Source: Flavobacteriales bacterium UBA1494
GTDB taxonomy: Bacteria > Bacteroidota > Bacteroidia > Flavobacteriales_E > Vicingaceae
DNA: 64,000 bases
Reading direction: 5' to 3'
NCBI GenBank assembly: GCA_905182175.1
Contig: CAJJAT010000004.1
Coordinates: forward strand, 1 to 64,000
Below are positions 5,963 to 22,643 of the stretch, piece by piece. Position numbers and translations under genes: made by a program. How positions within the stretch are numbered: position 1 is the first letter of the stretch; each line of letters begins with the position of its first letter. The notes below the pieces were generated by a model, which was not told the origin of the DNA, made no database searches, and worked only from the letters and a program-made list of their open reading frames with translations.

Positions 5963-5979
5963 CAGTCCAGTTAAAACTG

Positions 5980-6160
5980 GGCTTAAAGGTTCGCAATTTC
6001 GATTGTGATTAAAAGGGAATTCGATGAGATTTCGAGACTGTTCCCGCAGCTGTAAGCTCCATTAACCGATGGTCAATCTATGTCACTTATCGTTATCCAA
6101 CGATTGGGAAGGCGGCCAAAGGGGAGTAAGTCAGAAGACCTGCCTTTAAGCAACATACTT
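5980..6160 (+). promoter_or_regulatory. cobalamin (adenosylcobalamin/B12) riboswitch
   Basis: The core elements of the cobalamin aptamer appear in order: AAAGGTTCG at the 5' side, GATTAAAAGGGAA, CTGTTCCCGCAGCTGTAA, TTGGGAAGGCGGCC, and the B12 box AGTCAGAAGACCTGCC near 6129-6144. About 130 bases of leader separate the aptamer from the first gene start at 6295, enough for an expression platform. Established biology predicts that bound cobalamin shuts down the downstream uptake genes. This element is the main reason for assigning the next ten genes to B12 acquisition. Confidence 0.93.
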
Positions 6161-6294
6161 TCGGGATAAAAGTGAAGTGCGAGTTTAGCCTATTTTGGGC
6201 TACTTACCCTTTATGATTTTCTCGGTTTAATTTATTTATTAATAGATGTTTAGCTTTCAAACTAACTTAGTTAAACGTCATAAAAAAACCGAAA

Positions 6295-7575
6295 ATGAAA
6301 AAAATTACTTTTTCAATTGCTCTCTCAGTATTAACCTTTGCTAGTTTTGCGCAAAAAACCGTTCTAGCGAATGGTGGTAGATTTGGCAACCAAACTGAAA
6401 ATGTTTCAGTTAGTGTTTATGATACCCAAACAGGTATTTCCATAACGATCGATAGTATCGGAACTCAGTCCGTACAAGACGTGTTGGTAGATGGCAACAT
6501 TGCGTTTGTAGCTGCACAAGATTCTATTGTAAGATATGACCTAGTTTCTAACACAAGAACAGCAGCCGTGAAATTTGCAGGAGCAAGTACCAAGGCTATG
6601 ATTTTAGCACCTAACAACGAACTAATTGTTTCAAATTGGTATGGGCGTTCTTCTAATAATGTTTACATCTACAATCAGACTACATTGAACCTGGTGGATT
6701 CAATAGATTTTGCTGGAGGTGTAACTACTATGTTAGTAGATGCTGCAAATGATGTTCTTATTGTAACCCAAAATCAATCAAGTGGTGCACCAAACTACTC
6801 TGACACGTTGGGAAGTATCGTTGCAGCTTCAATTTCAACTAGATCTATAATTGCCCCTTTAACTGTTACCGGGTATACAAGTGGAATTGGTGAATTAATT
6901 GCAAAGCCAAATGGAACTGGAGCTTACGCTTTTAACTCAGGTACAAATACAATCATCGATGTTGATGTAACAAACTTTCCTGCGATAACAACGACACTAA
7001 ATACATCAAATCAAAACTTAAAAGTTGGTAGCAGTTCTCACTACGAAGTGAATGGTGATACACTATTTCTTAGAATGAACCAAGGAATTGGTTCTATGAA
7101 CTTGAATAATTTGGCTGTTATTGATTCGAATTTAATCGATACTGTAGTTACAGCATTTGCTTACGACAATGTGAATCACAAATTCTATGTTACAGCAACT
7201 GATTTTTTCAGCTTTACTTCTGGGAAAATATACGATAGAAGCGGCAATTACTTGAATACATTCGCTGTAGCCTCTTCACCTGAAGCTATTTCTATGTCGT
7301 ACAATCAATCTACAGGGTTGTTAAGTTTCTCAAATAAAGAAACTAAAGGATTTTCAATTTTCCCAAACCCTGCAACAACTCAATTTTCAATTGATGCAGA
7401 CGTAACTGCCGAAACGAGTGTTCAAATACTAAATTATAACGGTCAATTGGTGAAAGAGATTAATCAATTAAATTCTTCAAATCAAATTGATGTTAGTGAT
7501 CTTAGCTCAGGAGTTTATTTTGTAAATATTCTGATTAACGGTTCATTTTCAACAGAGAAATTAATTGTTAGATAA
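6295..7575 (+). CDS. T9SS-secreted beta-propeller protein, BtuG-like, first gene of the B12 operon
   Basis: A 426-residue exported protein. It has a signal peptide (MKKITFSIALSVLTFASFA|Q), then about 320 residues of repeated beta-strand units of the YncE/DUF5074 kind (for example VQDVLVDGNIAFVAAQDSI and TTMLVDAANDVLIVTQN), and a C-terminal T9SS type A sorting domain beginning near FSIFPNPATTQFSID and ending FSTEKLIVR. Surface beta-propellers encoded beside BtuB in Bacteroides (BtuG) bind cobalamin with very high affinity. By position directly behind the riboswitch and by fold, I infer a similar capture role, but delivered through T9SS rather than as a lipoprotein. The ligand contacts cannot be verified from sequence. 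Confidence 0.75.
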   Translation: MKKITFSIALSVLTFASFAQKTVLANGGRFGNQTENVSVSVYDTQTGISITIDSIGTQSVQDVLVDGNIAFVAAQDSIVRYDLVSNTRTAAVKFAGASTKAMILAPNNELIVSNWYGRSSNNVYIYNQTTLNLVDSIDFAGGVTTMLVDAANDVLIVTQNQSSGAPNYSDTLGSIVAASISTRSIIAPLTVTGYTSGIGELIAKPNGTGAYAFNSGTNTIIDVDVTNFPAITTTLNTSNQNLKVGSSSHYEVNGDTLFLRMNQGIGSMNLNNLAVIDSNLIDTVVTAFAYDNVNHKFYVTATDFFSFTSGKIYDRSGNYLNTFAVASSPEAISMSYNQSTGLLSFSNKETKGFSIFPNPATTQFSIDADVTAETSVQILNYNGQLVKEINQLNSSNQIDVSDLSSGVYFVNILINGSFSTEKLIVR

Positions 7576-7576
7576 A

Positions 7577-8548
7577 GTGAAATTTGTTTTGCTCCTATCT
7601 TTTGTAATTGTGTCCTTGAGCAGTCTTGCTCAAGGACCTTTTGCATCTCAAGCCGGGACAATTAGGACCTCTGCCATTTACAAAGATTCCAGTGTTTTTG
7701 TAGCATGGGCAAATAAGATAGAAGTACAACGAGGAAAACAAAATATTGCAACCTCTTCGTCAGATACCACGACTGTTGGTACATGGAGGCAAGGAATTGG
7801 AAAAGCAAGAGGAACAGTAATTAGTTTAGGCGATTCAGGAGTTGCAACTTTGCAGTTCAACGGACTTATTTATAACGGAGCTGGTCCTGATTTTGCTGTA
7901 TTTGAAAATTCGTTTAACCATACTTTTTTGGAGTTAGCTTTTGTTGAAGTGAGTTCAAATGGAATTGATTTTTATCGCTTTCCTTCAGAATCGTTAACAG
8001 ATACAACTACAGCGGTAGGTTCTTTTGGAATAGTGGATCCTACTAACATTCATAATTTAGCTGGTAAATACACTGTGAATTACGGGACTCCATTCGATTT
8101 GGATGATTTAGACTCTATACCTCAATTGGATATCGATGCGGTCAGTCATGTGAGAGTAGTGGATGTGATTGGGAGTTTAGATTCTGCATTTGCGCAAAGA
8201 GACAGTAAAAATAGAAAAGTGAACGATCAATACCCAACACCTTTCCAATCAGGTGGTTTTGACCTAGATGCTGTAGGTGTGATATATATGAAAGGTGTTG
8301 GCTTAACCGAAACTGGCATCGAATTAAATACAACCGTATATCCGAATCCATCCAACGGTTTGTTTTTTGTAGATTACGATAAAGATGAATCACTGAACTA
8401 TCAATTATTCAGCATTGAAGGTAAAAAAATTCGAGAAGGTGAATTAACCAAAGATCAATTAGATTTTAGAGAAGTTAATTCTGGGTATTATTTTTTGCAC
8501 CTTTTCGGAGAACAAGTATCCTCCACGATAACACTTGTAATTCAATGA
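7577..8548 (+). CDS. T9SS-secreted beta-sandwich surface protein of the B12 operon
   Basis: A 323-residue exported protein. I choose GTG at 7577 because it lies one base after the previous stop and opens a clean signal peptide (KFVLLLSFVIVSLSSLAQ); a TTG at 7565 would overlap. The core holds GAGPDFAVFENSF, LELAFVEVSSNGIDFYRFP and QSGGFDLDAVGVIY, a pattern typical of surface proteins found next to BtuB genes in Bacteroidota. A T9SS sorting domain follows (VYPNPSNGLFFVDY to the end). Its place in the riboswitch operon suggests a second surface capture or accessory factor, comparable in role to the BtuH-type proteins of Bacteroides, although I cannot confirm homology to BtuH. It overlaps the start of btuB by four bases. 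Confidence 0.7.
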   Translation: MKFVLLLSFVIVSLSSLAQGPFASQAGTIRTSAIYKDSSVFVAWANKIEVQRGKQNIATSSSDTTTVGTWRQGIGKARGTVISLGDSGVATLQFNGLIYNGAGPDFAVFENSFNHTFLELAFVEVSSNGIDFYRFPSESLTDTTTAVGSFGIVDPTNIHNLAGKYTVNYGTPFDLDDLDSIPQLDIDAVSHVRVVDVIGSLDSAFAQRDSKNRKVNDQYPTPFQSGGFDLDAVGVIYMKGVGLTETGIELNTTVYPNPSNGLFFVDYDKDESLNYQLFSIEGKKIREGELTKDQLDFREVNSGYYFLHLFGEQVSSTITLVIQ

Positions 8549-10437
8549 AAAAATTAGGAACCATCTTACTTTGTTTGATGGCTTTTAGTTTGGCTGGGCA
8601 AACCACATTTTCAGATACGGTTAAACTTAAGTCGGTTTTAATTCAAGGTAACAAACATCAACACCATCAAGAGCAATTAGATTCTGCAGTACTAAGTGAC
8701 CCACAACACCTAAATTTAGGTGATTTATTGTCAAAGAAATCTCACTTATTTATAAAATCTTATGGGATTGGAAGTTTGGCTACTATCTCGCTAAGAGGTA
8801 GCGGAAGTTCACACACACAACTAAACTGGAACGGTATATCATTAAACTCTAGCATGAATGGATCTAGCGATTTAGCCTTATTTCCATTGTTTTTTATGGA
8901 TGAAGTTACATTGAATTATGGGTTGAATAGTTCTGCAGATGGAACAGGAGGAATTGGTGGAGCTGTAAATATTTCAACCGTGCCAAGGTTTAAAAAACAA
9001 CTTAATTTATATGTGTCTGCTAACTACGGTAGCTATGGACAGCGTCAATATAACGCCCGAATAAAAGCAGGTAATAAGAAATTTCAATCCATCACTAAAA
9101 TAATACGGAATACAGCTGACAATAATTTCAATTATAAAGACTTAACGCAAGAAGGTTTTCCTCAACGAACAGTAAAAAATGCCAGTTTTACACAAAAAGG
9201 AATGATGCAAAATTTCTTTTTTAAGTTAAAAAAGAACCAATTGCTTGAAGCAAATTTGTGGTGGTTTGAATCGGAACGAAATTTACCGCCATTAATTACA
9301 TTGAGAGACAATACAGAGCTCCAAAAAGACATAGCATTAAAGTCTCTAGTGAAATATTCTAAGTATTTTAACAATGGTACCCTAAAAATAACAACGGCAT
9401 ATATTGACGATGCTCTTGACTATGTAAATGAAAGGGCTAATATTCAATCCAACTCTCACAGTAAAAGTCTGCGGACTAGAGCGGATTATGAATTTAACTG
9501 GAAGAAAATTAAATTTCACTCTCAAGTGAAATACAATAACAACAGAGCAGTGGCCGATGGTCTTACCGATAATGTATCACAAAATAGAATAGAAGCATAC
9601 ACTAAAGTGAAACGAAAAATTTCAGAAAATTTTAGTATCAATGTATCTACGAGGTATTTAAATGTATTAAAGGACGGTAGTTATTTTTTGCCACAACTTC
9701 GTGTAGAGTACCAAAACAAAAAACAGAATTCTAGACTATTTGCTGTTGTTGGAAGAAATGTTAAATATCCCAATTTAAACGATTTATATTTTCACCCTTC
9801 AGGAAATGTAAACTTGAAAGCAGAGGAAAGTGAAAGTGTTGAAATTGGAGGCTCTCTTGGAAAGTCATTGTTTCGTAAAAAGTTGGATGTAAATGGCAGT
9901 GCCGCTGTATTTTACAACAACATTCAAAATTACATTCAATGGGAACCAACCGCATTTGGTTTTTGGAAACCTTCCAATTTAAGTAGTGTTGAAACCATGG
10001 GTTTTGAACTATTTGCTGAACTACGCCAACAGAAAGGGACGATTAAGAAACACTTTAGTTCCACGTATTCCTTCACTTCATCCAAAAACTTTGAAAAGCA
10101 ACATGAATTCGACGAGTCTAAGGGAAAACAATTAATTTACATTCCTGAACACAAAGGAAACGTTAGTTTAGAATTAGAATTTAAGGGGATAGTTTTTAGC
10201 ACAAATTATCAAGTCATAGGCATTCGATACATTAGCTCTGATAACGTGGAATTTCTTCCGACATATTCTTTATTGGATTTTGGGATGAGCCGAAGATTTA
10301 GTTTAAAGCAAAAAAACAGTATTGAAATTTCTGTTGGAATTAAAAATACGCTTGATACAGAGTACCAATCAATAGAATGGAGACCAATGCCAAATCGCAA
10401 TTATTTTATTAAAATAGGCTATCAATTTAAAACATGA
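8545..10437 (+). CDS. btuB: TonB-dependent outer-membrane cobalamin receptor (BtuB-like)
   Basis: A 630-residue TonB-dependent receptor. After the signal peptide (ending LAGQTTF) comes a plug domain with ATISLRGSGSSHTQLNWNG and GTGGIGGAVNIST, the usual plug signatures, then a 22-strand-type barrel region from about residue 150, ending in the aromatic residue pattern YFIKIGYQFKT. It lacks the long N-terminal carboxypeptidase-like domain of SusC-type proteins, which fits the BtuB/vitamin receptor branch. The riboswitch upstream and BtuFCD downstream support cobalamin or cobinamide as substrate. ATGA overlaps couple it to the genes on both sides. Confidence 0.88.
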   Translation: MKKLGTILLCLMAFSLAGQTTFSDTVKLKSVLIQGNKHQHHQEQLDSAVLSDPQHLNLGDLLSKKSHLFIKSYGIGSLATISLRGSGSSHTQLNWNGISLNSSMNGSSDLALFPLFFMDEVTLNYGLNSSADGTGGIGGAVNISTVPRFKKQLNLYVSANYGSYGQRQYNARIKAGNKKFQSITKIIRNTADNNFNYKDLTQEGFPQRTVKNASFTQKGMMQNFFFKLKKNQLLEANLWWFESERNLPPLITLRDNTELQKDIALKSLVKYSKYFNNGTLKITTAYIDDALDYVNERANIQSNSHSKSLRTRADYEFNWKKIKFHSQVKYNNNRAVADGLTDNVSQNRIEAYTKVKRKISENFSINVSTRYLNVLKDGSYFLPQLRVEYQNKKQNSRLFAVVGRNVKYPNLNDLYFHPSGNVNLKAEESESVEIGGSLGKSLFRKKLDVNGSAAVFYNNIQNYIQWEPTAFGFWKPSNLSSVETMGFELFAELRQQKGTIKKHFSSTYSFTSSKNFEKQHEFDESKGKQLIYIPEHKGNVSLELEFKGIVFSTNYQVIGIRYISSDNVEFLPTYSLLDFGMSRRFSLKQKNSIEISVGIKNTLDTEYQSIEWRPMPNRNYFIKIGYQFKT

Positions 10438-11459
10438 AACAGTTAATTTATGTGTTGATTTTAGTTGTTGTTTTTTCATGTAGAAAAGATGACAATGCGG
10501 ATGGTCCGGTGGAAATTGACAATGCTAATGTGTTAATCTTGAACGAAGGAAACTTTAACTTTGGAAATGCTAGCTTATCGCTGTACAACGATAGGGACAA
10601 CAGTGTCGACAATAAAATTTTTCAGTCGAACAACAACGGTCGTCCCATTGGAGATGTCGTGCAATCAGCTACTCAAATTGGAGATGAGCTATTTGTTGTC
10701 GTAAATAATTCAAGTAAAATTGAAGTATTGAATGCAAGTACGCTGCAATCAAAAACTTCCATTCAGCAGTTGAACTCTCCACGATACATAGAAGTTGCCA
10801 CAACTCAAAAGGCCTATGTTAGTGATTTATATGAAGACAAATTGTACATAATAGATCCAACGAACCATAGTGTTACAAAAACTATTGAAACCAAAGGTTG
10901 GATTGAAGAAATGGCTATAGCGAATGGGAAATTGTACCTTACTCATGTCGACAGTAATCAGGTTTGGGTGTTAGATAGCACAACTGACTCTTTGCTCTAT
11001 AAAATTGATGTTCATATTCAGCCTCAATTTATTGAAGTTGACGCAGATGATAACGTTTGGGTAAGCTGCAGCGGGGGCTTTAATGGAGGGAAGTCTGCTT
11101 TATATCACATTCAAACATCAAATGATTCTATTGTTTCTATTCTGGAAGGAATTGCGGTTGAGGATAAAATTGGAGAGATAGAGATGAACTCAACAAAAGA
11201 TGAGCTGTATTATATCGGGAAAAATGGGTTGTATAAAATGAGTATAAACGACCTTCAACTTCCTGAGAATTCATTTATCGATCAGAACTTAAGGCTGTTC
11301 TATGGGTTTTCTATACACCCTATAAATAATCAAATTTACATAGCGGATGCAATTGATTATCAGCAAAGGGGAGTTGTATACCGGTACAACAAATCTGGAG
11401 TGCAAATAGATGCATTCAAGGTCGGGATTATTCCTGGAGACATTATATTTTTAAACTAA
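10434..11459 (+). CDS. BtuG-like YncE/DUF5074 beta-propeller lipoprotein
   Basis: A 341-residue lipoprotein: the leader MKQLIYVLILVVVFSC ends in a lipobox Cys at residue 16, followed by charged RKDDNAD, which suits surface export in Bacteroidota. The rest is a chain of YncE-type blades, e.g. VLILNEGNFNFGNASLSLYN, SPRYIEVATTQKAYVSDLY, GWIEEMAIANGKLYLTHVD and IYIADAIDYQQRGVVYRYN. The opening ILNEGNF is typical of the DUF5074 propellers that accompany BtuB in Bacteroidota, of which Bacteroides BtuG is the characterised example. It is translationally coupled to btuB (four-base overlap). I infer that it caps the receptor and hands over corrinoid; binding has not been shown for this protein. Confidence 0.82.
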   Translation: MKQLIYVLILVVVFSCRKDDNADGPVEIDNANVLILNEGNFNFGNASLSLYNDRDNSVDNKIFQSNNNGRPIGDVVQSATQIGDELFVVVNNSSKIEVLNASTLQSKTSIQQLNSPRYIEVATTQKAYVSDLYEDKLYIIDPTNHSVTKTIETKGWIEEMAIANGKLYLTHVDSNQVWVLDSTTDSLLYKIDVHIQPQFIEVDADDNVWVSCSGGFNGGKSALYHIQTSNDSIVSILEGIAVEDKIGEIEMNSTKDELYYIGKNGLYKMSINDLQLPENSFIDQNLRLFYGFSIHPINNQIYIADAIDYQQRGVVYRYNKSGVQIDAFKVGIIPGDIIFLN

Positions 11460-12263
11460 ATGGATTATTACCCACAACGAATTGTTTGTTTAACAGAGGA
11501 AACTACGGAATTACTCTATTTAATTGGAGAGCAAGATCGAATTGTCGGAATTTCTGGTTTTACAGTTCGTCCAAAGCGAGCAAGAAAAGAGAAGCCAAAA
11601 GTTTCTGCTTTTATTGATGCTAATATCGACGAAATCCTAGAATTAAAGCCTGATTTGGTGATTGGATTTTCTGATATCCAGGCAGATATTGCAAAGGAAT
11701 TAATTAAAAAGGGTGTTACTGTTTGGGTAAACAATCACAGGAGTGTAGAAGAGATTCTTAAAATGATAGTTCAGTTAGGGGCATTAGTTGGTAGAACACA
11801 AACGTGTTTGGATTTGGTGAATCATTATCAAAAACGAATTACCGAAATAGAATCGATAACTGCTAAGTGGAAAGCTAAACCAAAGGTTTACTTTGAAGAG
11901 TGGTATGACCCTTTAATCAGTGGAATAAAGTGGGTAAGCGAGTTGGTTGAAATTGCTGGAGGGATTGATTTGTATGTTAACAATGGCAATGAAAGTCTGG
12001 CTAAAAATAGGATAATTGAACACCACAAGGAAGTTTTAGATAAGGATCCAGATATTATTTTAGTCTCATGGTGTGGTAAGAAATTTAAGCCTAAGCGAAT
12101 GTTTGACCGAGAGGGTTGGAAAGAAACAAAAGCGTATCAGAAAAAAGATTTTTTTGAAATTGATTCGGGCATAATACTTCAACCAGGGCCAGCAAGTATT
12201 TCAGAAGGATTAGAAATTATGCACACTATTTTTTCAAATTGGGTAGAAAAGCATGAAAGATAA
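11460..12263 (+). CDS. BtuF-like cobalamin-binding-fold protein without signal peptide
   Basis: A 267-residue member of the periplasmic-binding family of BtuF (COG0614): QRIVCLTEETTELLYLIG near the N-terminus, DEILELKPDLVIGFSDIQ, WVSELVEIAGGIDLYV and PDIILVSWCGKKF. The start codon at 11460 directly abuts the preceding stop and leaves no room for a leader, and the N-terminus (MDYYPQRIVC) is not hydrophobic. It should therefore stay in the cytosol, unlike the lipoprotein BtuF encoded at 19781. Signal-less relatives are common in this phylum; a role as an intracellular corrinoid-binding protein is an inference. It overlaps the next gene by eleven bases. Confidence 0.8.
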   Translation: MDYYPQRIVCLTEETTELLYLIGEQDRIVGISGFTVRPKRARKEKPKVSAFIDANIDEILELKPDLVIGFSDIQADIAKELIKKGVTVWVNNHRSVEEILKMIVQLGALVGRTQTCLDLVNHYQKRITEIESITAKWKAKPKVYFEEWYDPLISGIKWVSELVEIAGGIDLYVNNGNESLAKNRIIEHHKEVLDKDPDIILVSWCGKKFKPKRMFDREGWKETKAYQKKDFFEIDSGIILQPGPASISEGLEIMHTIFSNWVEKHER

Positions 12264-12954
12264 AAAGCCCAAATTATATTTTAACTGGAGCAGTGGTAAA
12301 GATTCCTCTTTTGCTTTATATCAATTAATAAAGCAGGATAAATTTGAAATTTCAATTTTACTAACTACGGTTGGAGCAGAAACCAAAAGGATTGGAATGC
12401 ATGGTTTGAGGGAAAGTTTATTGAAACGTCAGGTGGACTGCATTGGCATTCCGTTAAAGATTATTTACTTATCGAGTTCAACTTCACACGAAGCGTATAA
12501 TGAGTTGATGAATAATGCCATGCAGGAGATGAAAAGCCGTGGTATTAATGAAACTGCTTTCGGTGATATTTTTTTAGAAGACCTCAGGGCGTATCGGGAA
12601 AATCAGTTAGTAAAAGTTGGAATCAAAGCACAATTTCCATTGTGGAAAAGAAACACTAGAGAGCTAATTTTTGAATTTATTGACCTTGGTTTTAAAACAA
12701 AAATTGTTGCAGCAAATGCAACGTACTTTGATGAAAGTTTTGTCGGTAAAGACCTGACTGAAGAGTTGATAAACAATTTGCCTGAGGGGGTAGATCCCTG
12801 TGGCGAAAACGGTGAATTTCATACTTTCTGCTATGATGGACCAATTTTCAAAAAACGGGTAGAATTCAATTTGGGTAAAAAAGTGAAGAAAAGTTATCCA
12901 AATCCAAGTAATGCTGAGGATAAAATCGACTTTTGGTTCTGTGATTTAATCTAA
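12253..12954 (+). CDS. Dph6/diphthine-ammonia-ligase-like PP-loop ATPase
   Basis: A 233-residue cytosolic ATP pyrophosphatase of the COG2102 family. The PP-loop FNWSSGKDSSFALYQL binds ATP; further family blocks are GMHGLRESLLKRQ, FGDIFLEDLRAYRE, FPLWKRNT and the C-terminal GVDPCGENGEFHTFCYDGP, which contains the conserved GENGE motif. In eukaryotes Dph6 amidates diphthine on EF2, a target bacteria lack, so the bacterial enzymes must act on something else. Being locked into a riboswitch-controlled B12 operon suggests a corrinoid-related amidation or ligation, such as processing of incomplete corrinoids. That is an inference from context only. Confidence 0.82.
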   Translation: MKDKKPKLYFNWSSGKDSSFALYQLIKQDKFEISILLTTVGAETKRIGMHGLRESLLKRQVDCIGIPLKIIYLSSSTSHEAYNELMNNAMQEMKSRGINETAFGDIFLEDLRAYRENQLVKVGIKAQFPLWKRNTRELIFEFIDLGFKTKIVAANATYFDESFVGKDLTEELINNLPEGVDPCGENGEFHTFCYDGPIFKKRVEFNLGKKVKKSYPNPSNAEDKIDFWFCDLI

Positions 12955-13002
12955 CTAAAACCGCAAATTATAGCAATTTATGTTCTGCTTTTACGATATT
13001 TG

Positions 13003-13015
13003 TTAGTCGGACTAA
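13003..13015. promoter_or_regulatory. short palindrome upstream of the giant repeat gene
   Basis: TTAGTC-G-GACTAA is a perfect six-base inverted repeat in the 71-base gap that is the only sizeable space inside the B12 operon. It might be an operator or part of an internal promoter for the giant gene; no clear TAnnTTTG box accompanies it. Confidence 0.3.
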
Positions 13016-13025
13016 AACCTAAGAT

Positions 13026-16000
13026 TTGAAAGGATTTATTAAATATTTCTTTGCACTACTGTTGATGTTTTTATTTCAGCAAGTTAACGCACAGTTTCGG
13101 TTGATTATGGAGATTGCTGTTACCGAAGAAGGAAGGAGGATGCCAGGTGCATCTATCAAAGTATTCAAGGATGGATCTTTCGTGGAGAGTGTGTCTACTG
13201 ACTCGAAAGGATTAGCCGATATTGCATGTGAGCCGAATGCTGTTTATACTATTGAAATTGGTGGAAACAAAGGTATGGTTGCTAAAAAACTAGAGATTAA
13301 CACCAACAGTGTAACCCCTGAAACGGCTAAAGGCGACGTTTTTTTTCCTGTTACAGTCGGGCTTTTCGAAAAGATTGATGGACTGAACCTAGCTATTTTA
13401 GACAAACCGATTGGTAAGATTAAGTTTGATCCGGAGTATGGTGATTTTGACAGTGATGCTTCGTACACAAAAACTATTCAAAAACAACTGGAGAATTTAG
13501 AAAAAGAGTTTCTGGCAAAACAAGACGAGAAAGCAGCTGAAAAAGCTGGAGCAATGAAAGAATATGCTGCAGCAATAAAAATTGCTGATAAAGCACTAGC
13601 CTCTGAGGAATGGGAGCAAGCGGCAGAGCAGTATCGAATTGCAGAAAAAGTTAACCCTGATCCTTTGGAAACGTATCCGAGTTTCCAGTTAGCTGAGTTA
13701 AAGACCAAATTGATGAAAATTGAATCGGATAATGAGCGGTACGACGAAGCGATAACAAAAGCTGAAACAGCGCTATCTTCTAAAAATTATGAAATTGCTA
13801 TTGCAGAATTTCAAAGGGCTTCAGGTTATAAGCCAAAAGAAGAATACCCGGAAACTAAAATAAAAGAAGTTCAAGGTATTTTAGCAAATTCAGTAAAAAT
13901 AGAGCAGTCTTATTTAGCTGCCATAGAAAAAGGGGATAATGCATTAAAGATAAATGATATGACAATAGCTAAGGCTGCTTTTCAAGAGGCAGTTAGCTTA
14001 AAGTCTGACGAAACATATCCCAAAAATAAAATTTCTGAAATTGATGATATTTTAGCCAAGCAAGATGCAAGAAAAGCGGAGTATGACACTGCGATAAAAG
14101 ACGCAGATGAAGCTCTTGCTGTAAAAGACTATCCGGTTGCAAAAGCATCTTACACGAAAGCCTCAACATTAAAGCCAACCGAACAATACCCAAAAGATCA
14201 AATAGGAAAGGTAGAAGCCTTAATGGTAGGAGCCGCAAAATTAGAGCAAAATTATCTTACTGCTGTCGAGAAAGGAGACATTGCTTTGAAGTTGAATAAT
14301 TTTGTTGAGGCAAAAACTTCTTTTCAGTCGGCAAGCACTTTAAAACCTGAGGAGGCTTACCCCAAAAATAAGGTTAAGGAAATTGATGATTTTATTGCAG
14401 CAAATGAAGCGAAAGACAAGCAATATTTGGACAAAATTGCAGAGGCAGATAAAGCATTAGAAAGTAAAGAGTACGAAAATGCAAAAACTGCCTACACTGC
14501 CGCAGTTAACATTAAGCCTGCAGAAGCTTATCCTGCAACAAAAATTTCTGAGATTGATGGAGTTCTGGCAAGCCTAGCAAAAGCAGAGGAGAATTATAAG
14601 GCTGCAATTACAAAAGGAGATGCTGCAATTGTTTCTGTTGACTATGTAACCGCAAAAGCTGCCTTTAATGAAGCATTAACATACAAACCTGATGAAAAAT
14701 ACCCCAAGGACAAGCTTGCAGAAATTGGAACCATTGTATTAAAAAATCAAGAATCAGAAGAGGAATACAAAGCTGCAATTATAGACGGTGATGATGCTTT
14801 AACGGACAAGAACTACGACAAAGCCAAAGAGTTTTATGCAGTAGCAACTGGGTTAAAGCCATCGGAGGCTTACCCCAAAACTAAAATTTCTGAAATAGAA
14901 AAGACGGTCAGTGAAGCGGCCGAAAAAGAGAAATTTTATAATGACGCGTTAGCGAGTGCAGATGATGCTATGAATTCCAATGAATTAGAAAAGGCGAAAG
15001 GAAATTATGAAGTAGCTAGTGGATTAAAACCTGAAGAGAGTTACCCAAAGGAGCAGATTGCTAAAATTGTAACTCAGATTTTAGAGAGTCAAGAACTTAA
15101 TTTAAATTATACTGCTGCGATTAATGAGGGCGATGGAGCTCTGACCGCTAAAGATTATGAAAAAGCAAAAACAGCTTTTGATAAAGCAAGTATTTTAAAA
15201 GAGAATGAGGAATATCCGAAAACAAAAATTTCGGAAATAAATGGAATTTTAACTGAATTAAAAGGCAAAGAAGAAACATACAACGCAGCAATAGCGAAAG
15301 GAGATGCAGCTTTAAGTAGTGAAAAATACGAAGGAGCTAGGGCTGCTTTTGAAGAGGCTGTGGCGATTAAAGATGAAAAATACCCTAAGGATAAAATTGT
15401 TGAAATCGATGCTAAAATAAAGGCTCTTGCTGAAGCTGCAGCAACGAGTGAAAGGCTTGACGCAGAGTACCAAGCTGCAATTGCTAAAGCAGATAAATTT
15501 GGTAGTGAAAAGAAATACGACGAAGCCATTTCAGAGTACACCAAAGCAGGTGAACTAAAGCCCGAAGAATCTTACCCAAAAGAAAAAATCACTGAATTAA
15601 GCTTGGCGAAAAAAAATGAAGCAAAAGCTGCTGCATTAGCCGAAGTTCAGAAGAAATATGAGGAACAGATAAAGACTGCGGACGCAGCATTTCAAGCTGG
15701 AGATTTGGAGGTTGCAAGAACGGCTTATGAAACAGCTTTAGCTACAAAGGAAGACGAAACGTATCCGGTAGAAAAAATAGCAAGTATCACTGAAACACTT
15801 GTAAATGATGCGCAAAACGATAGCAAATATAAAGATGCCATTTCTGCGGCCGATAAACTAATGGTGGAGGAGAAGTTGGAGGAAGCTAAAACAGAATATC
15901 AAAAAGCCGCCAAATTTAAACCCGACCAAGAATTTCCAAAGGAAAAAATAGTCGAAATAGATGAACGATTAACTCAAATAGCGGCTAAACAAGAAGAAAT

Positions 16001-19000
16001 TAGACTTCAGGGTAAAAAACAAGCAGAGGTTGACGCAAACTATACAGTTATAATTGCGGATGCTGATAATTTGTTCAATTTAGGAAAGTTTGAAGAGGCA
16101 AAACCCAAGTATGAGGCTGCATTGACAATAAAAGAAGAGCAATATCCAAAGGATAAAATTGCTGAGATAGCTGCGAAACTAGTAAAATTATCAGATGCAA
16201 GTGATGCAGCAGAAGCTCAAGCAAAAATTGATGCAGAGTACGACGCAATCATTGTTAAAGCTGATGCATTATTTAATTCAGAAGAATATACAACTGCAAA
16301 AAGCAAGTATGAAGCTGCTGTTGCGGTAAAAGAGGAGCAATACCCAAAAGACAAGATTGCTGAGATAGCTGCCAAACTAGTAGAATTAGCGGATGCCGCT
16401 GCGGCAAATTCAGCAGCAGAAGCTCAAGCAAAAATTGATGCAGCTTACGATGCAATCCTTGTTGAAGCTAATGCATTGTTTGATTCAGAAGAGTATGCAA
16501 CTGCAAAAAGCAAGTATGAAGCTGCTGTTGCTGTAAAAGAGGAGAAATACCCAAAGGACAAGATTACTGAGATAGCTGCTAAACTAGTAGAATTAGCGGA
16601 TGCCGATGCGGCAAATTCAGCAGCAGAAGCTCAAGCAAAAATTGATGCAGCATACAATGCAATCCTTGTTGAAGCTGATGCATTATTTAGTTCAGAAGAA
16701 TATACAACTGCAAAAAGCAAGTATGAAGCTGCTGTTGCGGTAAAAGAGGAGCAATACCCAAAAGACAAGATTGTTGAGATAGCTGCCAAACTAGTAGAAT
16801 TAGCGGATGCCGATGCGGCAAATTCAGCAGCAGAAGCTCAAGCAAAAATTGATGCAGCATACGGTGCAATCCTTGTTGAAGCTAATGCATTGTTTGATTC
16901 AGAAGAGTATGCGACTGCAAAGAGTAAATACGAAGCTGCTTTTGCGGTAAAAGAGGAGCAATACCCAAAAGATAAAATTGCTGAGATTGAGGCGAAATTA
17001 ATAAAATTGGCAAGTGCTGAGGCTGCAAATGTAGCTGCAACGGCCAAAGCAAAGGTTGATAAGGAGTATAAAGATTTAATAGCTGAAGCGGATGCATTAT
17101 TTGAAATAAAGGAATTTAAGTCCGCTAAAATTAGCTATGAAACTGCATTAAGATTAAAAGATGAACTATATCCCAAGGACCAAATTGCTAAAATTACTTC
17201 TGCTATAAATGCTTTGTCTAACGTTGAAGCTGCAGAAGTGCAGGAAGCAAAAATAGAGCTTGAGTATTTAGCAGCAATTGAAAAAGGAGATAATTTGCTT
17301 ACTTCTGATGACTTGGGAAATGCTTTAAAGGCATTTAAAAAGGCTGCATCTTTAAAACCAGCTGAAAGTTATCCAGCTCAGAAAATTGCAGAAATTGACA
17401 GTTTAATTACAGCACGAAATGGAATAGATGCCGCAAAGCAGGAGGAATTAAAAAAGTTGTACGACAACTACATTCAAGAGGGAATAAGTGCAATGGATGA
17501 TGAAAATTGGTCGCTTGCTGTTTCGAGTTTTCAAGAAGCTCAAAATACACTTCCCGAGGAGGCGTTACCGCCAATAAAACTGAAGGAAGTTAAAGACTTG
17601 AAAACCAAACAGGTTTCTGAAGAAGAAGAAATTCGATTGAGAAAAGAGCAGTCTGCTGCAAACGATGCATCTTACCAAGTAGCCATTGCTAACGGAGATA
17701 AATATTTCAGAGACAAGAATTACAATGAAGCTGAAAATGAATACCGCTTAGCTTTAGGGTTAAAGTCAAAAGAAATATACCCTCAAGATCAATTGGATAA
17801 GATTATCGCTATTGAAGCTGCACAAAATGCAGCAAAGCAAGCTGAATTGAATGCAAAAAGTACCGGAGAAAAGAAGGAACAGCAATACAAAAATTTAATT
17901 GCCCTTGGCGACCGAGAATTTCAAGCAGAGTCCTATGAAAAAGCAAAAGATAATTTTGAAACTGCATTGAAAATTAAATCAGATGAAGCTTATCCGAAAG
18001 CTCAAATTGTTTTATTAAATAATTTGCTAGAAAAAGAGAAGTTAGCTGAAGCGCAAAGAGGGAAGGATTTCGATAAACCAATCCAAATTCAAAAAGGCCC
18101 TAAAGCAACCATAACTGATGATGCAGAAGCTGAGATAGAAAGGATTTATAGAGAACTTTGGGCTAAGCAAAACAGTGATAAAAATGCAAAATTGGAAGAA
18201 ATACAAGCGGATTTAGGAAAAATTCGTGAAGAAAACATCGAGTTGGAACAGTCTAGAAGGCTAAATGCTATTGAGCAATTAGAGGATATAAGAATCAGTA
18301 TGAAAGATCAATTTGAAGTTAGTTCTGAATTGAATTTTCAAAACTATGAAACAATTAAACAGCAAGAGGAAGATTTTACTGTCAGCGGACAGAGTTACAT
18401 GAAAACAGCGGAAAGAAGAAGAGAGACCAAAGCAATGGATAAGGAATTGTTAGTAGAAAGTATTTCGTTATTCAACAAAAAAAGAGCAGTCGAAATTCTT
18501 GAAGGTAAAAAAGAGATGATAGAAAATGAATTCAACGAAGTGTCTCAGTCTAATCTAAATAAAACAAAAATACAATATGATTACATTACAGACTTTCGAA
18601 GTAAGTTAGAAGATTTGAAGTCTAGACTCCAGAAGTTTCATGAAGGTAAGTCAACAGAGTTTTACCCTGAGAACTACAAACGCATTTTAAATGAGAAAGA
18701 GGAATTAGCGGGGACAACAGAGAAAAACACGAAAGAATCTGAAGATAGAAGACTTGAATTTTTAGACAATGTAAATCAAACTTCTGCAGAAATAGAAGAA
18801 TATACAAGAGAAAATATTGAGAACTATAAACGTATTTTAAAAGAGGAAGAGGAATCAGGAAAGACAACAGAGAAAAACACGAAAGAATCTGAAGATCGAA
18901 GACTTAAATATTTAGATAAGGTAAATCAAACTTCGACAGAAATAGGACAATACACAGGAAAAAATATTGAGAACTACAAACGTATTTTAAAAGAGGAAGA

Positions 19001-19769
19001 GGACGTTGCAGAGATAACAGAAAAGAATACGAAAGAATCTAAAGGTCGAATAATTAAATACCAAGAGAATGCAAATCAAACTTCGACGGAAATAGGACAA
19101 TATACAGGAGCTAATGCTGAGAACTACAAACGTGTTTTAAAAGAGGAAGAGAGGCTTGCAGAGATAACAGAGAAAGACACAAAAGAATCTGAAGATCGGA
19201 GACTTAAATACCAAGAAAAGGCAAATCAAACTTCGACGGAAATAGGACAATATACAGGAGCTAATGCTGAGAACTACAAACGTGTTTTAAAAGAGGAAGA
19301 AGTGTTTGCAGAGGCAACAGATAAAAATGCCAAAGAATCCGGAGATCGAAGACTTGAATACCAAGAAAATGCAAATCAAACTTCAACGGAAATGCGACAA
19401 TTTGCAGGAGAAAATGATGAAACTTTTAAAAATAACCAACTTGCGATTGAAGAGTTAGAAAAAGACTTAAAAAAAGAAAACGAAGAGTTTGTTGATGCGT
19501 CTGAAAAGAGAAGAAAGAAGAACTCCGAAGAGGACTATTATTTAGGTGAGAAAAAGATAAGGCAAGACAAATCTTCTGCTGATTACCCTCAAGGAATAAC
19601 AGAAAAAATTATTGAAAGCCAGAACAACAGCACAACTATTAGAAGAATTGTTGTGGAAAGTACGAGAACCGATATTTATGAAAAAACACTTTACAAGTGG
19701 GGAGGTATTTTCTACACCAAAAATGGAAGAAATATCACAAAAGATATGTGGGATAGTGAAAGTAAATAA
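13026..19769 (+). CDS. giant exported repeat protein (2247 residues), TPR-like and coiled-coil, inside the B12 operon
   Basis: The start is TTG at 13026 (a stop sits two codons upstream) and opens a signal peptide cleaved near VNAQ|F. Residues about 26-115 form a CNA-B/carboxypeptidase-regulatory-like beta-domain (GASIKVFKDGSFVESVSTDS). From about 178 to 1680 run 24 units of roughly 65-75 residues. Each has the form Y-x2-AI-x-KGD-AL, then a Y-x2-AK-x2-Y/F pair, then LKP-x-E-x-YPK-x-KI-x-EI, a TPR-like helical hairpin with an extra helix. Next comes a charged coiled-coil (about 1690-1880), five 50-residue repeats starting NYKRILKEEE, and a conserved-looking tail (VESTRTDIYEKTLYKWGGIF). No enzyme motif, sorting domain or membrane span is visible. 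The gene lies 71 bases after the PP-loop gene and 11 bases before btuF. A periplasm-spanning or scaffold role is possible but unproven. Confidence 0.85.
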   Translation: MKGFIKYFFALLLMFLFQQVNAQFRLIMEIAVTEEGRRMPGASIKVFKDGSFVESVSTDSKGLADIACEPNAVYTIEIGGNKGMVAKKLEINTNSVTPETAKGDVFFPVTVGLFEKIDGLNLAILDKPIGKIKFDPEYGDFDSDASYTKTIQKQLENLEKEFLAKQDEKAAEKAGAMKEYAAAIKIADKALASEEWEQAAEQYRIAEKVNPDPLETYPSFQLAELKTKLMKIESDNERYDEAITKAETALSSKNYEIAIAEFQRASGYKPKEEYPETKIKEVQGILANSVKIEQSYLAAIEKGDNALKINDMTIAKAAFQEAVSLKSDETYPKNKISEIDDILAKQDARKAEYDTAIKDADEALAVKDYPVAKASYTKASTLKPTEQYPKDQIGKVEALMVGAAKLEQNYLTAVEKGDIALKLNNFVEAKTSFQSASTLKPEEAYPKNKVKEIDDFIAANEAKDKQYLDKIAEADKALESKEYENAKTAYTAAVNIKPAEAYPATKISEIDGVLASLAKAEENYKAAITKGDAAIVSVDYVTAKAAFNEALTYKPDEKYPKDKLAEIGTIVLKNQESEEEYKAAIIDGDDALTDKNYDKAKEFYAVATGLKPSEAYPKTKISEIEKTVSEAAEKEKFYNDALASADDAMNSNELEKAKGNYEVASGLKPEESYPKEQIAKIVTQILESQELNLNYTAAINEGDGALTAKDYEKAKTAFDKASILKENEEYPKTKISEINGILTELKGKEETYNAAIAKGDAALSSEKYEGARAAFEEAVAIKDEKYPKDKIVEIDAKIKALAEAAATSERLDAEYQAAIAKADKFGSEKKYDEAISEYTKAGELKPEESYPKEKITELSLAKKNEAKAAALAEVQKKYEEQIKTADAAFQAGDLEVARTAYETALATKEDETYPVEKIASITETLVNDAQNDSKYKDAISAADKLMVEEKLEEAKTEYQKAAKFKPDQEFPKEKIVEIDERLTQIAAKQEEIRLQGKKQAEVDANYTVIIADADNLFNLGKFEEAKPKYEAALTIKEEQYPKDKIAEIAAKLVKLSDASDAAEAQAKIDAEYDAIIVKADALFNSEEYTTAKSKYEAAVAVKEEQYPKDKIAEIAAKLVELADAAAANSAAEAQAKIDAAYDAILVEANALFDSEEYATAKSKYEAAVAVKEEKYPKDKITEIAAKLVELADADAANSAAEAQAKIDAAYNAILVEADALFSSEEYTTAKSKYEAAVAVKEEQYPKDKIVEIAAKLVELADADAANSAAEAQAKIDAAYGAILVEANALFDSEEYATAKSKYEAAFAVKEEQYPKDKIAEIEAKLIKLASAEAANVAATAKAKVDKEYKDLIAEADALFEIKEFKSAKISYETALRLKDELYPKDQIAKITSAINALSNVEAAEVQEAKIELEYLAAIEKGDNLLTSDDLGNALKAFKKAASLKPAESYPAQKIAEIDSLITARNGIDAAKQEELKKLYDNYIQEGISAMDDENWSLAVSSFQEAQNTLPEEALPPIKLKEVKDLKTKQVSEEEEIRLRKEQSAANDASYQVAIANGDKYFRDKNYNEAENEYRLALGLKSKEIYPQDQLDKIIAIEAAQNAAKQAELNAKSTGEKKEQQYKNLIALGDREFQAESYEKAKDNFETALKIKSDEAYPKAQIVLLNNLLEKEKLAEAQRGKDFDKPIQIQKGPKATITDDAEAEIERIYRELWAKQNSDKNAKLEEIQADLGKIREENIELEQSRRLNAIEQLEDIRISMKDQFEVSSELNFQNYETIKQQEEDFTVSGQSYMKTAERRRETKAMDKELLVESISLFNKKRAVEILEGKKEMIENEFNEVSQSNLNKTKIQYDYITDFRSKLEDLKSRLQKFHEGKSTEFYPENYKRILNEKEELAGTTEKNTKESEDRRLEFLDNVNQTSAEIEEYTRENIENYKRILKEEEESGKTTEKNTKESEDRRLKYLDKVNQTSTEIGQYTGKNIENYKRILKEEEDVAEITEKNTKESKGRIIKYQENANQTSTEIGQYTGANAENYKRVLKEEERLAEITEKDTKESEDRRLKYQEKANQTSTEIGQYTGANAENYKRVLKEEEVFAEATDKNAKESGDRRLEYQENANQTSTEMRQFAGENDETFKNNQLAIEELEKDLKKENEEFVDASEKRRKKNSEEDYYLGEKKIRQDKSSADYPQGITEKIIESQNNSTTIRRIVVESTRTDIYEKTLYKWGGIFYTKNGRNITKDMWDSESK
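13558..18040 (+). repeat. 24 degenerate TPR-like repeat units in the giant protein
   Basis: Each unit ends in a variant of YPK-x-KI-x-EI. Counting these ends (ETYPSFQ, EEYPETK, ETYPKNK and so on to EAYPKAQ) gives 24. Protein similarity is clear throughout while most units differ strongly at the DNA level, so the array is old except for its centre. Confidence 0.85.
16209..17010 (+). repeat. near-identical 207-base tandem repeats
   Basis: The marker GCAGAAGCTCAAGCAAAAAT recurs at 16209, 16416, 16623 and 16830, exactly 207 bases (69 codons) apart, and the sequence between is almost the same in each unit. This is a recent expansion by unequal recombination inside the older repeat array and is likely to vary in copy number. 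Confidence 0.9.
18669..19418 (+). repeat. five 150-base repeats encoding a charged coiled-coil
   Basis: GAGAACTA(C/T)AAACG recurs near 18669, 18819, 18969, 19119 and 19269, a 150-base (50-codon) period. The encoded unit runs from NYKRILKEEE through ESEDRRLKY to NQTSTEIGQYTG, which should form a long helix. It is separate from the 207-base array in both sequence and period. Confidence 0.88.
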
Positions 19770-19780
19770 CAGTTATATAT

Positions 19781-20914
19781 ATGAATAGGCTTTTCATCTC
19801 GTTTCTTTTGGTCTTTGTAATGGCCTGCTCATCCTCTACAAAAGAAAGCACTCTAACCAGTACCTCTCAACAAGAAGAATACGCTAGCTTTTCTATTAAG
19901 GATTCATCGGGGTTTAAAATAATTGAGATAAAGCAGCCATTTTTAGGTGCTTTGCAACCCGAAAGGTATGTTCTATACCTTAAACAAGATGGCCAACCTG
20001 AAGGAATTAGTGCAAGTGTATTTGTTGGTTTACCTGTTGAGCGAATTGGTATTAATTCGACTACGCATTTGGGATTTTTAAATGCAATTGAACAGTCAGG
20101 AAAGATTGTAGCAGCAACCAATAATCATCTCTTTTATGATGGGATAATGAATCAAAGAATTGATTCTGGAAAAGTTACTAGCTTAGGCAATAGAGTATTA
20201 AATACAGAAAAAACAATAAAAAGTGAGTTAGATGTACTTTTTAGCTTTGCTATTGACGCAGCCTCTTACGAGGAAGTAAAAAAGCTGAGGAAATTGGGAC
20301 AACCGGTTATAGTTATTTCTGAATTTTTAGAAGCTGACCCCATTAGAAAAGCGAGATGGCTTGATGTATTTGCTGCCTTTTTTGATACTCAAACTCAAGA
20401 GAAATCCAAACAATTTTTAGAAGAGGTAGAGCTTTGTTATGACTCTATTCGAAATAAAGCATCTCTATTTTCATTTTCTCCTTCCGTTTCAATTGGTTTG
20501 CCATGGAAAGGAACGTGGTATGTTAGCGGAGCAGAATCATATCAAGCTCAATTAATAAAAGATGCAGGGGGACTCTATACGTGGAAGAAGTATAAACAAG
20601 CAGGAAGCGTTCCATTAGATATTGAAACTGCCATTAGTCAGGGACTTCAATCTGACATTTGGATTAACCCGGGAATGGTTAGGGGTTCAAAAGAATTATT
20701 GGGAAAAAATGAAATATTTGAACAATTCAAATCATATAAAAATCGCACTATTTACACGAACTACAAACTGTCTAATAGCAACGGAGCGAATGATTATTGG
20801 GAAAAAGGAGCTGTACGACCAGATTTAATATTGGCTGATTTGGTTGCTGTTTTTCATCCTTTGGATTCATCTTCGGTTGGAGAGGCAACATTTTACAAAA
20901 GTATTTTTAAATGA
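19781..20914 (+). CDS. btuF: ABC-transporter substrate-binding lipoprotein, BtuF-type
   Basis: A 377-residue lipoprotein (leader MNRLFISFLLVFVMAC, lipid-modified Cys16, then SSSTKES). It carries the COG0614 fold: GLPVERIGINSTTHLGFLNA, LDVLFSFAIDAASYEEVKKL, QPVIVISEFLEADPIRKARW, WYVSGAESYQAQLIKDAGG and a C-terminal SDIWINPGM block. It should sit on the periplasmic face, bind corrinoid and deliver it to the permease encoded next, with which it overlaps by four bases. Proteins of this group also serve ferric siderophores, so the cobalamin assignment rests on the upstream riboswitch. It starts eleven bases after the giant repeat gene. Confidence 0.83.
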   Translation: MNRLFISFLLVFVMACSSSTKESTLTSTSQQEEYASFSIKDSSGFKIIEIKQPFLGALQPERYVLYLKQDGQPEGISASVFVGLPVERIGINSTTHLGFLNAIEQSGKIVAATNNHLFYDGIMNQRIDSGKVTSLGNRVLNTEKTIKSELDVLFSFAIDAASYEEVKKLRKLGQPVIVISEFLEADPIRKARWLDVFAAFFDTQTQEKSKQFLEEVELCYDSIRNKASLFSFSPSVSIGLPWKGTWYVSGAESYQAQLIKDAGGLYTWKKYKQAGSVPLDIETAISQGLQSDIWINPGMVRGSKELLGKNEIFEQFKSYKNRTIYTNYKLSNSNGANDYWEKGAVRPDLILADLVAVFHPLDSSSVGEATFYKSIFK

Positions 20915-21921
20915 AAAGTTCCTTCATTTTTACTCTTTTGATTATAGCGCTTATCCTTCTTGCTGTTGCTGATGTTTTAATTGGCAGTGTTTCAATTCCA
21001 CTAGAAGATTTCATGAATTTGTTAAAAGGAGAAGAAAATTCTGAAGTTTTTAACTTCATCGTTCTTCAATCACGTATTCCAAAAGCGTTAACTGCCGTTC
21101 TTTGTGGTGCCTCCCTTTCCCTGGCTGGTTTATTAATGCAAACATTATTTAGAAATCCTTTGGCTGGTCCCTATTTGTTGGGAATTAGTTCTGGAGCAGG
21201 TTTAGGAGTTGCTCTTTTGGTTATGGGGGCCGGAGTTATAGGAATCTCTCTTTCTTCTCAACTATCTTTTAATGCTGCAGCAATAGGTGGTTCATTAGCG
21301 ATGATGACTATTTTATTCGTTGTTTCTTTTAAAGTTAAAGATATAATGACACTGCTTATTTTTGGTGTAATGATGGGTTCCATAGCTACTGCTATTATAG
21401 GACTAATTCAATTTTTCACAAGTGCCTTTCAGCTTAAGTCGTTTATTGTATGGACTTTGGGGAGCTTGTCAGCTGTTTCATATGGCGAGTTGGCTTTTCT
21501 ATCTGTTGTATTGGTAAGTTCAAGTTTGTTTATGATTGCTCAATACAAAGGATTAAACGCAATTTTGATTGGAGAGGATTTCGCGAAAATGTTGGGGATT
21601 AAAATCTTGAGTATCCGCTTAAGTATAATTATTGTAACTGGAATACTAGCGGGTCTAATAACTGCTTTCTGCGGGCCAATTGGATTTGTAGGTATTATAA
21701 TTCCGCACTTGGCAAGGCTAGTTCTAAAATCAAACGATCATTTACTATTGATTCCTGTCTGTTTGCTTCTTGGGGCAAATGTGCTGTTGCTAAGTGATAT
21801 TTTAGCTCATTTGCCAGCGGATGGCACTAGCTTACCAATTAATTCAATCACTTCAATTATTGGTATCCCTATAATTTTATGGATCATATTTGGTAACAAA
21901 AATCTAAGTCAAACATTTTGA
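20911..21921 (+). CDS. btuC: FecCD/BtuC-family ABC transporter permease
   Basis: A 336-residue inner-membrane permease with about ten hydrophobic helices. Family landmarks are LQSRIPKALTAVLCGASLSL, GLLMQTLFRNPLAGPYLLGI with the following SSGAGLGV, the ATP-binding-protein contact region around GEDFAKMLGIKI, and FCGPIGFVGIIIPHLARLV near the C-terminus. It forms the translocation path for the substrate bound by the neighbouring lipoprotein. Overlaps of four bases with the genes on both sides make a compact btuFCD unit at the end of the riboswitch operon. Confidence 0.88.
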   Translation: MKSSFIFTLLIIALILLAVADVLIGSVSIPLEDFMNLLKGEENSEVFNFIVLQSRIPKALTAVLCGASLSLAGLLMQTLFRNPLAGPYLLGISSGAGLGVALLVMGAGVIGISLSSQLSFNAAAIGGSLAMMTILFVVSFKVKDIMTLLIFGVMMGSIATAIIGLIQFFTSAFQLKSFIVWTLGSLSAVSYGELAFLSVVLVSSSLFMIAQYKGLNAILIGEDFAKMLGIKILSIRLSIIIVTGILAGLITAFCGPIGFVGIIIPHLARLVLKSNDHLLLIPVCLLLGANVLLLSDILAHLPADGTSLPINSITSIIGIPIILWIIFGNKNLSQTF

Positions 21922-22643
21922 GTCATCCACTATTGCACATAAGAGATTTGTCTGTTTCATACTCAACTAAGTTCGAAATACTTTCGAACTTGAATTTGAG
22001 GTTAAATTCAAATGAATTAATCGCTATAATTGGCGAAAATGGAGCGGGAAAATCTACATTGTTAAAATCTATTTGTGGCTTAACAGCATACCATAAAGGA
22101 CAAATTTTATTATTTAACAAGGAGCTTAAAAAGTGGAATAGGGCCGAGCTTGCTAAAAAAGTAGCATATGTTAGTTCAAACGATCGAGTAAAGTCGTCTA
22201 TGACAGTTGAGCGTTTTGTTGGTTTTGGAAGATATCCTTATTCGGGTTGGATGGTGGGACAAACTGAGCAAGATAAAGAACAAATAAAAAGTGCTTTAGA
22301 GGTTTGTAAAATAGCGTATCTAAAATCTAAACATATGTCGCAGCTAAGTGACGGAGAGAGGCAAAAGGTCTATTTAGCGAAAGCAATAGCTCAAAATACG
22401 GAGCTCATAATTATGGACGAACCAACGACACATTTAGATATTAAAAGTTCTACTTCTATTTTTAAATTAATTGAGAGTCAAAAAGTAGCGGGTAGAACAG
22501 TTTTATTTTCTTCTCACCAAGTAGATAGAGCATTAAGCATAGCAGATAAGGTATGGCTCGTTGATTGTGGTAGAGTTATTGAAACTACTCCAGACCAATT
22601 TTTTGAAAGTCCTGAGTTGAAGAAAAAAATTTACGGAGAATAG
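21918..22643 (+). CDS. btuD: ABC transporter ATP-binding protein, BtuD-type
   Basis: A 241-residue ATPase energising the uptake of corrinoid. Walker A is GENGAGKST (about residues 39-47), the signature motif is LSDGERQK, Walker B is LIIMDEPTTHLD, and the switch His lies in FSSHQVD. Translation probably starts at TTG 21918, which overlaps the TGA of the permease gene (TTGA). The gene's 3' end runs 13 bases into the convergent small lipoprotein gene. Nothing in the sequence separates a B12 from a siderophore transporter; the operon context does. Confidence 0.88.
   Translation: MSHPLLHIRDLSVSYSTKFEILSNLNLRLNSNELIAIIGENGAGKSTLLKSICGLTAYHKGQILLFNKELKKWNRAELAKKVAYVSSNDRVKSSMTVERFVGFGRYPYSGWMVGQTEQDKEQIKSALEVCKIAYLKSKHMSQLSDGERQKVYLAKAIAQNTELIIMDEPTTHLDIKSSTSIFKLIESQKVAGRTVLFSSHQVDRALSIADKVWLVDCGRVIETTPDQFFESPELKKKIYGE

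Follow-up and report, generated by a model that had tools for sequence, protein, structure and literature searches.

What is a gene for an exported protein of 2247 amino acids doing in the middle of a vitamin B12 uptake operon, between the genes for the outer-membrane components and those for the ABC importer? We analyzed this question in a stretch of 64,000 nucleotides from Flavobacteriales bacterium UBA1494 (contig CAJJAT010000004.1; hereafter the window) and in the genomes of its relatives. Downstream of a cobalamin riboswitch the operon has the order T9SSa-T9SSb-BtuB-BtuG-PBP-Dph6-GIANT-BtuF-BtuC-BtuD, with the following features:

5970..6161, plus strand: cobalamin riboswitch at the head of the operon (Rfam RF00174, 109.4 bits, E 1.7e-26)
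6295..7575, plus strand: T9SSa, T9SS-tailed secreted protein (Por_Secre_tail)
7565..8548, plus strand: T9SSb, second T9SS-tailed secreted protein (Por_Secre_tail)
8545..10437, plus strand: BtuB-like TonB-dependent transporter (PF00593, PF07715; TIGR01779 with E 1.4e-30, below the cut-off of that model)
10434..11459, plus strand: BtuG-like beta-propeller (DUF5074; PF16819, E 1.6e-21; beta-propeller repeats)
11460..12263, plus strand: Peripla_BP_2 protein without signal peptide (PF01497, E 4.7e-43; sequence)
12253..12954, plus strand: Dph6-like ATP pyrophosphatase (PF01902, E 1.7e-38)
13026..19769, plus strand: open reading frame of the giant (single uninterrupted frame, TTG start, 2247 aa)
19781..20914, plus strand: BtuF, lipoprotein B12-binding protein of the ABC importer (lipobox C16; profile; context)
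20911..21921, plus strand: BtuC, FecCD-type permease (PF01032, E 1.5e-69; BtuC model, 2.8e-58)
21918..22643, plus strand: BtuD, ABC ATPase (PF00005)

The riboswitch score and the coordinates bear out the original prediction, which had placed the giant inside a cobalamin-riboswitch operon directly ahead of btuF: 11 nt lie between the end of the giant gene (19769) and the btuF start (19781), and the location in a riboswitch operon together with btu genes is kept in relatives. The interval between the Dph6 gene and the giant is 60-104 nt long, and the remaining genes of the operon mostly overlap or abut. As judged from its substrate-binding fold together with the B12 gene context, the gene at 19781-20914 is a BtuF. 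The protein of the window alone stays just under the Pfam cut-off; the profile of its family matches the E. coli BtuF structures (1n2z) at 4.9e-7, and iron-binding proteins score higher. Members of this BtuF family adjoin BtuG/BtuB in L167 and L178, with the order BtuB-BtuG-BtuF-BtuC-BtuD in L167. A second cobalamin riboswitch of the same genome lies away from the giant operon (G000:C12:10522-10706).

A riboswitch-led operon, BtuB, a BtuG-like beta-propeller, a lipoprotein BtuF, BtuC and BtuD are common to the window and the B12 loci of Bacteroides, for which BtuB, BtuG, BtuH, BtuF, BtuC and BtuD have been described (PMC6143338, PMC8941943, PMC10404256, PMC12751083), and accessory genes of unknown function occur in both. 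An internal promoter is reported in one operon of B. thetaiotaomicron. In comparison with the Bacteroides loci, the operon of the window adds two T9SS-tailed proteins, a second binding protein, the Dph6-like enzyme and the 2247-aa rod, and a component resembling the giant has not been described for any B12 system in the open-licence literature that we searched, in agreement with the initial assessment. The pair of Peripla_BP_2 protein and Dph6-like enzyme (11460-12954) is kept in the B12 operon of several genera. T9SSa is probably a secreted BtuG-like beta-propeller, as suggested by an identity of 22% to the BtuG-like protein of the operon over 241 aa (E 0.001, a single comparison), and a B12 binder secreted by the T9SS would be of interest if true. 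Distant homologues of T9SSa, each led by a riboswitch, are found in another family (L200:7103-8371, L109:2060-3496, L117:3305-4591), and for T9SSb no family besides Por_Secre_tail was found.

The giant itself can be divided into four parts behind its signal peptide:

13092..13454, plus strand: N-terminal beta-sandwich, residues 23-143 (CarboxypepD_reg-like; model mean pLDDT 91.8)
13455..18086 (approximate), plus strand: 24 TPR-like two-helix units (motif spacing; model of the first units)
18087..19580 (approximate), plus strand: long helical section (DNA repeats; single helix in the C-terminal model)
19581..19766, plus strand: conserved C-terminal beta-domain of about 62 aa (alignment; structure model)

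By its sequence the giant is a long exported helical rod with a small beta-domain at each end, and the structure models predict the same architecture. Residues 1-23 (MKGFIKYFFALLLMFLFQQVNAQ) read by inspection as a signal peptide, and since the 19-residue windows of highest hydrophobicity fall within this peptide, a second membrane helix is not evident; the protein contains one cysteine. The motif [YF]PxxKI occurs in 23 copies plus one degenerate copy (LPPIKL, around residue 1514), spaced 57 aa apart in the first half of the protein and 64-71 aa apart in most of the second half. In the model of residues 23-420 the beta-sandwich is followed by pairs of helices of about 35 aa and 14 aa. For the final 230 residues the model (mean pLDDT 87) shows a single helix that spans about 150 aa, together with a small domain built from five strands and a terminal helix. 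The exported protein with its own signal peptide, the 24 TPR-like units and the C-terminal helical (coiled-coil) section of the original prediction were all recovered in this way, the last as a helix in the structure model.

At the DNA level, the tandem copies in the giant gene are well beyond chance. Four 300-nt copies with a spacing of 207 nt (16197-17117) are 76-95% identical to the reference, which points to recent expansion inside the gene, and four further tandem copies with a spacing of 150 nt are 78-84% identical, the helical section containing 50-aa tandem repeats at 18668-19417. Tandem paired helices are common to the giant and to TPR proteins (TPR_2, PF07719; designed CTPR), and the summed PF07719 score of 63.8 bits exceeds the cut-off of 27, although no single stretch passes alone. 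In a structure search CTPR proteins were the best matches (E 4e-5), but the TM-scores were low (0.16). Canonical TPRs have two short helices in 34 aa, whereas the giant has a period of 57-71 aa with helices of about 35 and 14 aa, and it is not a canonical 34-residue TPR protein. At the N-terminus, the beta-sandwich is shared with CarboxypepD_reg proteins, and PF13620 and PF13715 matched weakly in 13 of 13 aligned members (best 2.2e-9), but the giant of the window alone, at 16.5 bits, stays below the cut-off of 32.3 and carries an additional conserved stretch, ILDKPIGKI, behind the domain. For the C-terminal beta-domain, Pfam, NCBIfam and PDB yielded no family match, and a fold search with the C-terminal part found nothing below E 0.1. 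Matches of the tail to a fucose lectin (PDB) and DUF3913 (Pfam) were judged to be chance, and VIA-align Z values of about 4.5-5.5 between the beta-domain and SMC heads and others were read as a common arrangement.

To which family does such a protein belong? In a search of 60 relatives the giant was found in nearly all genomes of the family, which lies near Vicingaceae in the Flavobacteriales and includes the cultured Acidiluteibacter ferrifornacis, whose strain S-15 carries the operon; all 16 examined genera of this Vicingaceae-like family carry it intact and with one full copy per genome, and each listed family genome gave a single tail match (contigs C10 and C15 of G002 both contain this region, and G002 was counted once). 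The idea that an unrelated gene has recently landed in the operon does not agree with its presence in all 16 genera, and a recent insertion or an annotation artefact is ruled out by the long open frames and recurrent contexts kept in relatives. Across the class, 128 of 247 genomes encode the C-terminal domain, often more than once. The giant belongs to an old, undescribed family of the Bacteroidia, the genes of which are usually located elsewhere in the genome than the B12 genes.

Within the family, the giant is followed by btuF, either immediately or after one or two intervening genes, in 12 of the 16 genera, often with 0-14 nt in between, and this adjacency is kept despite a turnover of the upstream neighbours. 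In seven genera (g1, g3, g8, g9, g10, g11, g15; the g10 locus is cut by the contig end) the giant lies downstream of the riboswitch within the operon. In g2 and g6 the btu genes adjoin the giant and no riboswitch was seen on that contig. The riboswitch is located elsewhere in g7 and g12, with the order giant, 330-aa protein, (DUF4846), btuF, btuC, btuD, and in g5 and g13, with giant, (330-aa protein), (DUF4846), btuF, while g4, g14 and g16 keep both giant and btuF at separate sites. A cobalamin salvage operon around the giants of g4, g5 and g13, guessed from gene lengths, was ruled out by Pfam, which assigned the genes to DUF1599, an ABC permease and triosephosphate isomerase and left one protein unassigned. 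One btuF gene (G032:C27:2820-3818) has two internal stops, which may reflect gene decay or an error in sequencing. Giants encoded in the full operon, with about 1850-2250 aa, are longer than the remaining giants of the family, which have about 1400-1740 aa. A tree built from the N-terminal 398 aa places all full-operon copies on one side of a branch with support of 81/76, and 14 of 15 are grouped at 100/100; most simply, the riboswitch operon merged once with a giant-btuF segment, in the clade of the window.

Outside the family the neighbourhoods are more diverse. Among 80 tail-bearing genomes of the class a BtuF of this type (E<=1e-30) is present in 21, and in none of the 80 is btuF next to a listed tail gene. 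A divergent FAD oxidoreductase gene lies upstream of giant relatives in 10 loci of 6 families, and several loci have DUF4846, likely an NlpC/P60-like domain (PMC10318531), downstream. In several families the next gene after the giant encodes an exported 330-aa protein (LTLRDGNVITGTT...) without Pfam family (for example L057:12500-13546, L051:8673-9662, L068:12203-13180). B12-related genes are seen near some relatives: riboswitch-BtuB-BtuG-Dph6 beyond the FAD oxidoreductase in G056, Dph6 in G224, and a riboswitch-led T9SSa homologue upstream of the giant in G088, G267 and L117. Furthermore, in the Bacteroidales-like order of G279 a tail gene lies directly upstream in 4 of 30 btuF loci, with gaps of 2-9 nt or an overlap and with no riboswitch seen beside the pair. 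Gaps of 2-9 nt are found in the Bacteroidales-like loci L150, L153, L174 and L202, and a tail-first search added the btuF-adjacent loci L114, L126, L127 and L136 as well as L147, which adjoins btuC. The association of giant and B12 genes exceeds what coincidence would give, and it is positive only in f1, parts of f9 and f21 and some Bacteroidales-like genomes, not across most of the giant family. Homologues were expected never to lie near B12 genes if the link was spurious, and the neighbour table speaks against this. What stands of the proposed B12 link is a conserved resident beside btuF, in this family and in loci of another order; that the giant is a B12-specific part does not follow, as most relatives are far from B12 genes.

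A further piece of evidence is found in the interval ahead of the giant gene:

12991..13005, plus strand: conserved promoter-like element TTACGATATTTGTTA (32 of 36 upstream regions, with any neighbours)

The consensus just ahead of the gene is TT[ACG]CGATATTTG[TC]TA. The core CGATATTTG is located close to the giant start in these 32 of 36 regions, families f19 and f21 included, and although the 36 loci are related by descent and hence not independent, their flanks have diverged and the core has not (1.8-2.0 bits per column in the core; mostly below 0.5 farther out). It precedes the giant in B12 and non-B12 contexts alike, also in L180 and L181, and in G054 and G166, where no B12 gene is located beside it. 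The exact form TTNCGATATTTGT occurs once in the genome of the window, and genome-wide counts of similar patterns resemble those of a reversed-pattern control; therefore, the element appears to be gene-specific, and the idea of a regulon was rejected. GATATTTG differs by one mismatch from the flavobacterial -7 box TAnnTTTG, and if the element is a -7 box, its distance to the start gives a 5' UTR compatible with the published median of 24 nt (PMC9723704). We infer from these sequence features that the element acts as the giant's own promoter. Scans for sigma-70 promoters and terminators gave no signal above shuffles. As the plus strand showed no terminator-like site between the Dph6 gene and the giant, transcription from the riboswitch promoter may also read through into the giant gene. 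An internal promoter that uncouples the giant from B12 had been named as evidence against a B12 role; the promoter-like element, which accompanies the gene in all contexts, goes part of this way, at the level of sequence. Relatives outside the family (L134, L137, L148) have a different, TTTACGTTAAATA-like upstream element, similar to the CGT box known from ECF sigma promoters of flavobacteria (PMC9723704).

How can the position of the giant be explained? A dedicated component of B12 uptake, a periplasmic rod that docks the lipoprotein BtuF by an end domain near BtuB or guides it to BtuCD, is a tentative possibility, for which the adjacency to btuF in 12 of the 16 genera at often minimal distance, the short gaps in Bacteroidales-like loci, the additional btuF- and btuC-adjacent loci, the riboswitch upstream of the operon in several genera and the riboswitch-led genes near the giant in G056, G088, G267 and L117 can be cited. 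Most relatives have no B12 gene beside the giant, however, including G054 and G166 with the same element, giant and btuF are kept apart in three genera of the family, and the giant has its own promoter-like element. That a giant periplasmic rod of Bacteroidota, paired with BtuF, is a dedicated structural part which carries or positions BtuF between BtuB and BtuCD seems doubtful to us. The originally suggested bridging or load-sharing between BtuB/TonB and BtuF would likewise be conjectural. The opposite assumption, an old gene that stays with btuF through shared descent of gene order and a shared transcript and is functionally unrelated to it, is in line with the own upstream element, with the synteny of a downstream thioredoxin-like gene and RF3 that is common to relatives without btuFCD at this site, and with the confinement of the full-operon copies to one side of the tree branch; as btuF also adjoins the giant in a second order, among otherwise different neighbours, we consider it unlikely. 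It is very improbable that the C-terminal domain is an unrecognised signal for secretion or surface anchoring and that the giant is displayed outside the outer membrane. A conserved beta-domain of about 62 aa at the C-terminus of long exported proteins, encoded beside T9SS-tailed proteins, would fit such a signal, but neither a type A nor a type B sorting domain was found in the giant with the Pfam and NCBIfam models TIGR04183, PF18962 and PF13585. Moreover, the N-terminal domain is also present in 108 of 116 tail ORFs uncut at the 5' end, so that the tail belongs to a two-ended protein family and is not a mobile sorting tag on varied cargo.

We put at about an even chance the reading that the giant is a rod of general function in the envelope that has a promoter of its own, and that the B12 operon closed around it so that btuFCD is co-transcribed with it. 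The kept adjacency to btuF, its recurrence in another order and the riboswitch-led genes near giants of other families speak against this reading. In this general role, the family would serve as an envelope scaffold or tether, in which the two conserved end domains hold two parts of the envelope and the helical middle is a spacer of variable length. The riboswitch-BtuB-BtuG-Dph6 genes on one side and btuFCD on the other would have come to flank the giant closely in the clade of the window. The giant would then probably be transcribed from its own promoter and, when B12 is scarce, by read-through, and the same promoter may give btuFCD a basal supply that is independent of the riboswitch. In this reading, the giant would have come into the B12 operon through the history of its gene neighbourhood and not as a B12-specific part of the machinery.

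The analysis defines a widespread, undescribed family of long exported rods in the Bacteroidia, with a C-terminal domain that has no Pfam entry, and part of this family is tied to BtuF across two orders. The giant may bear on the spacing of binding proteins and TonB-dependent transporters across the periplasm. Should its role be general, it would still matter as a scaffold of the envelope whose promoter-like element is unusually well conserved.
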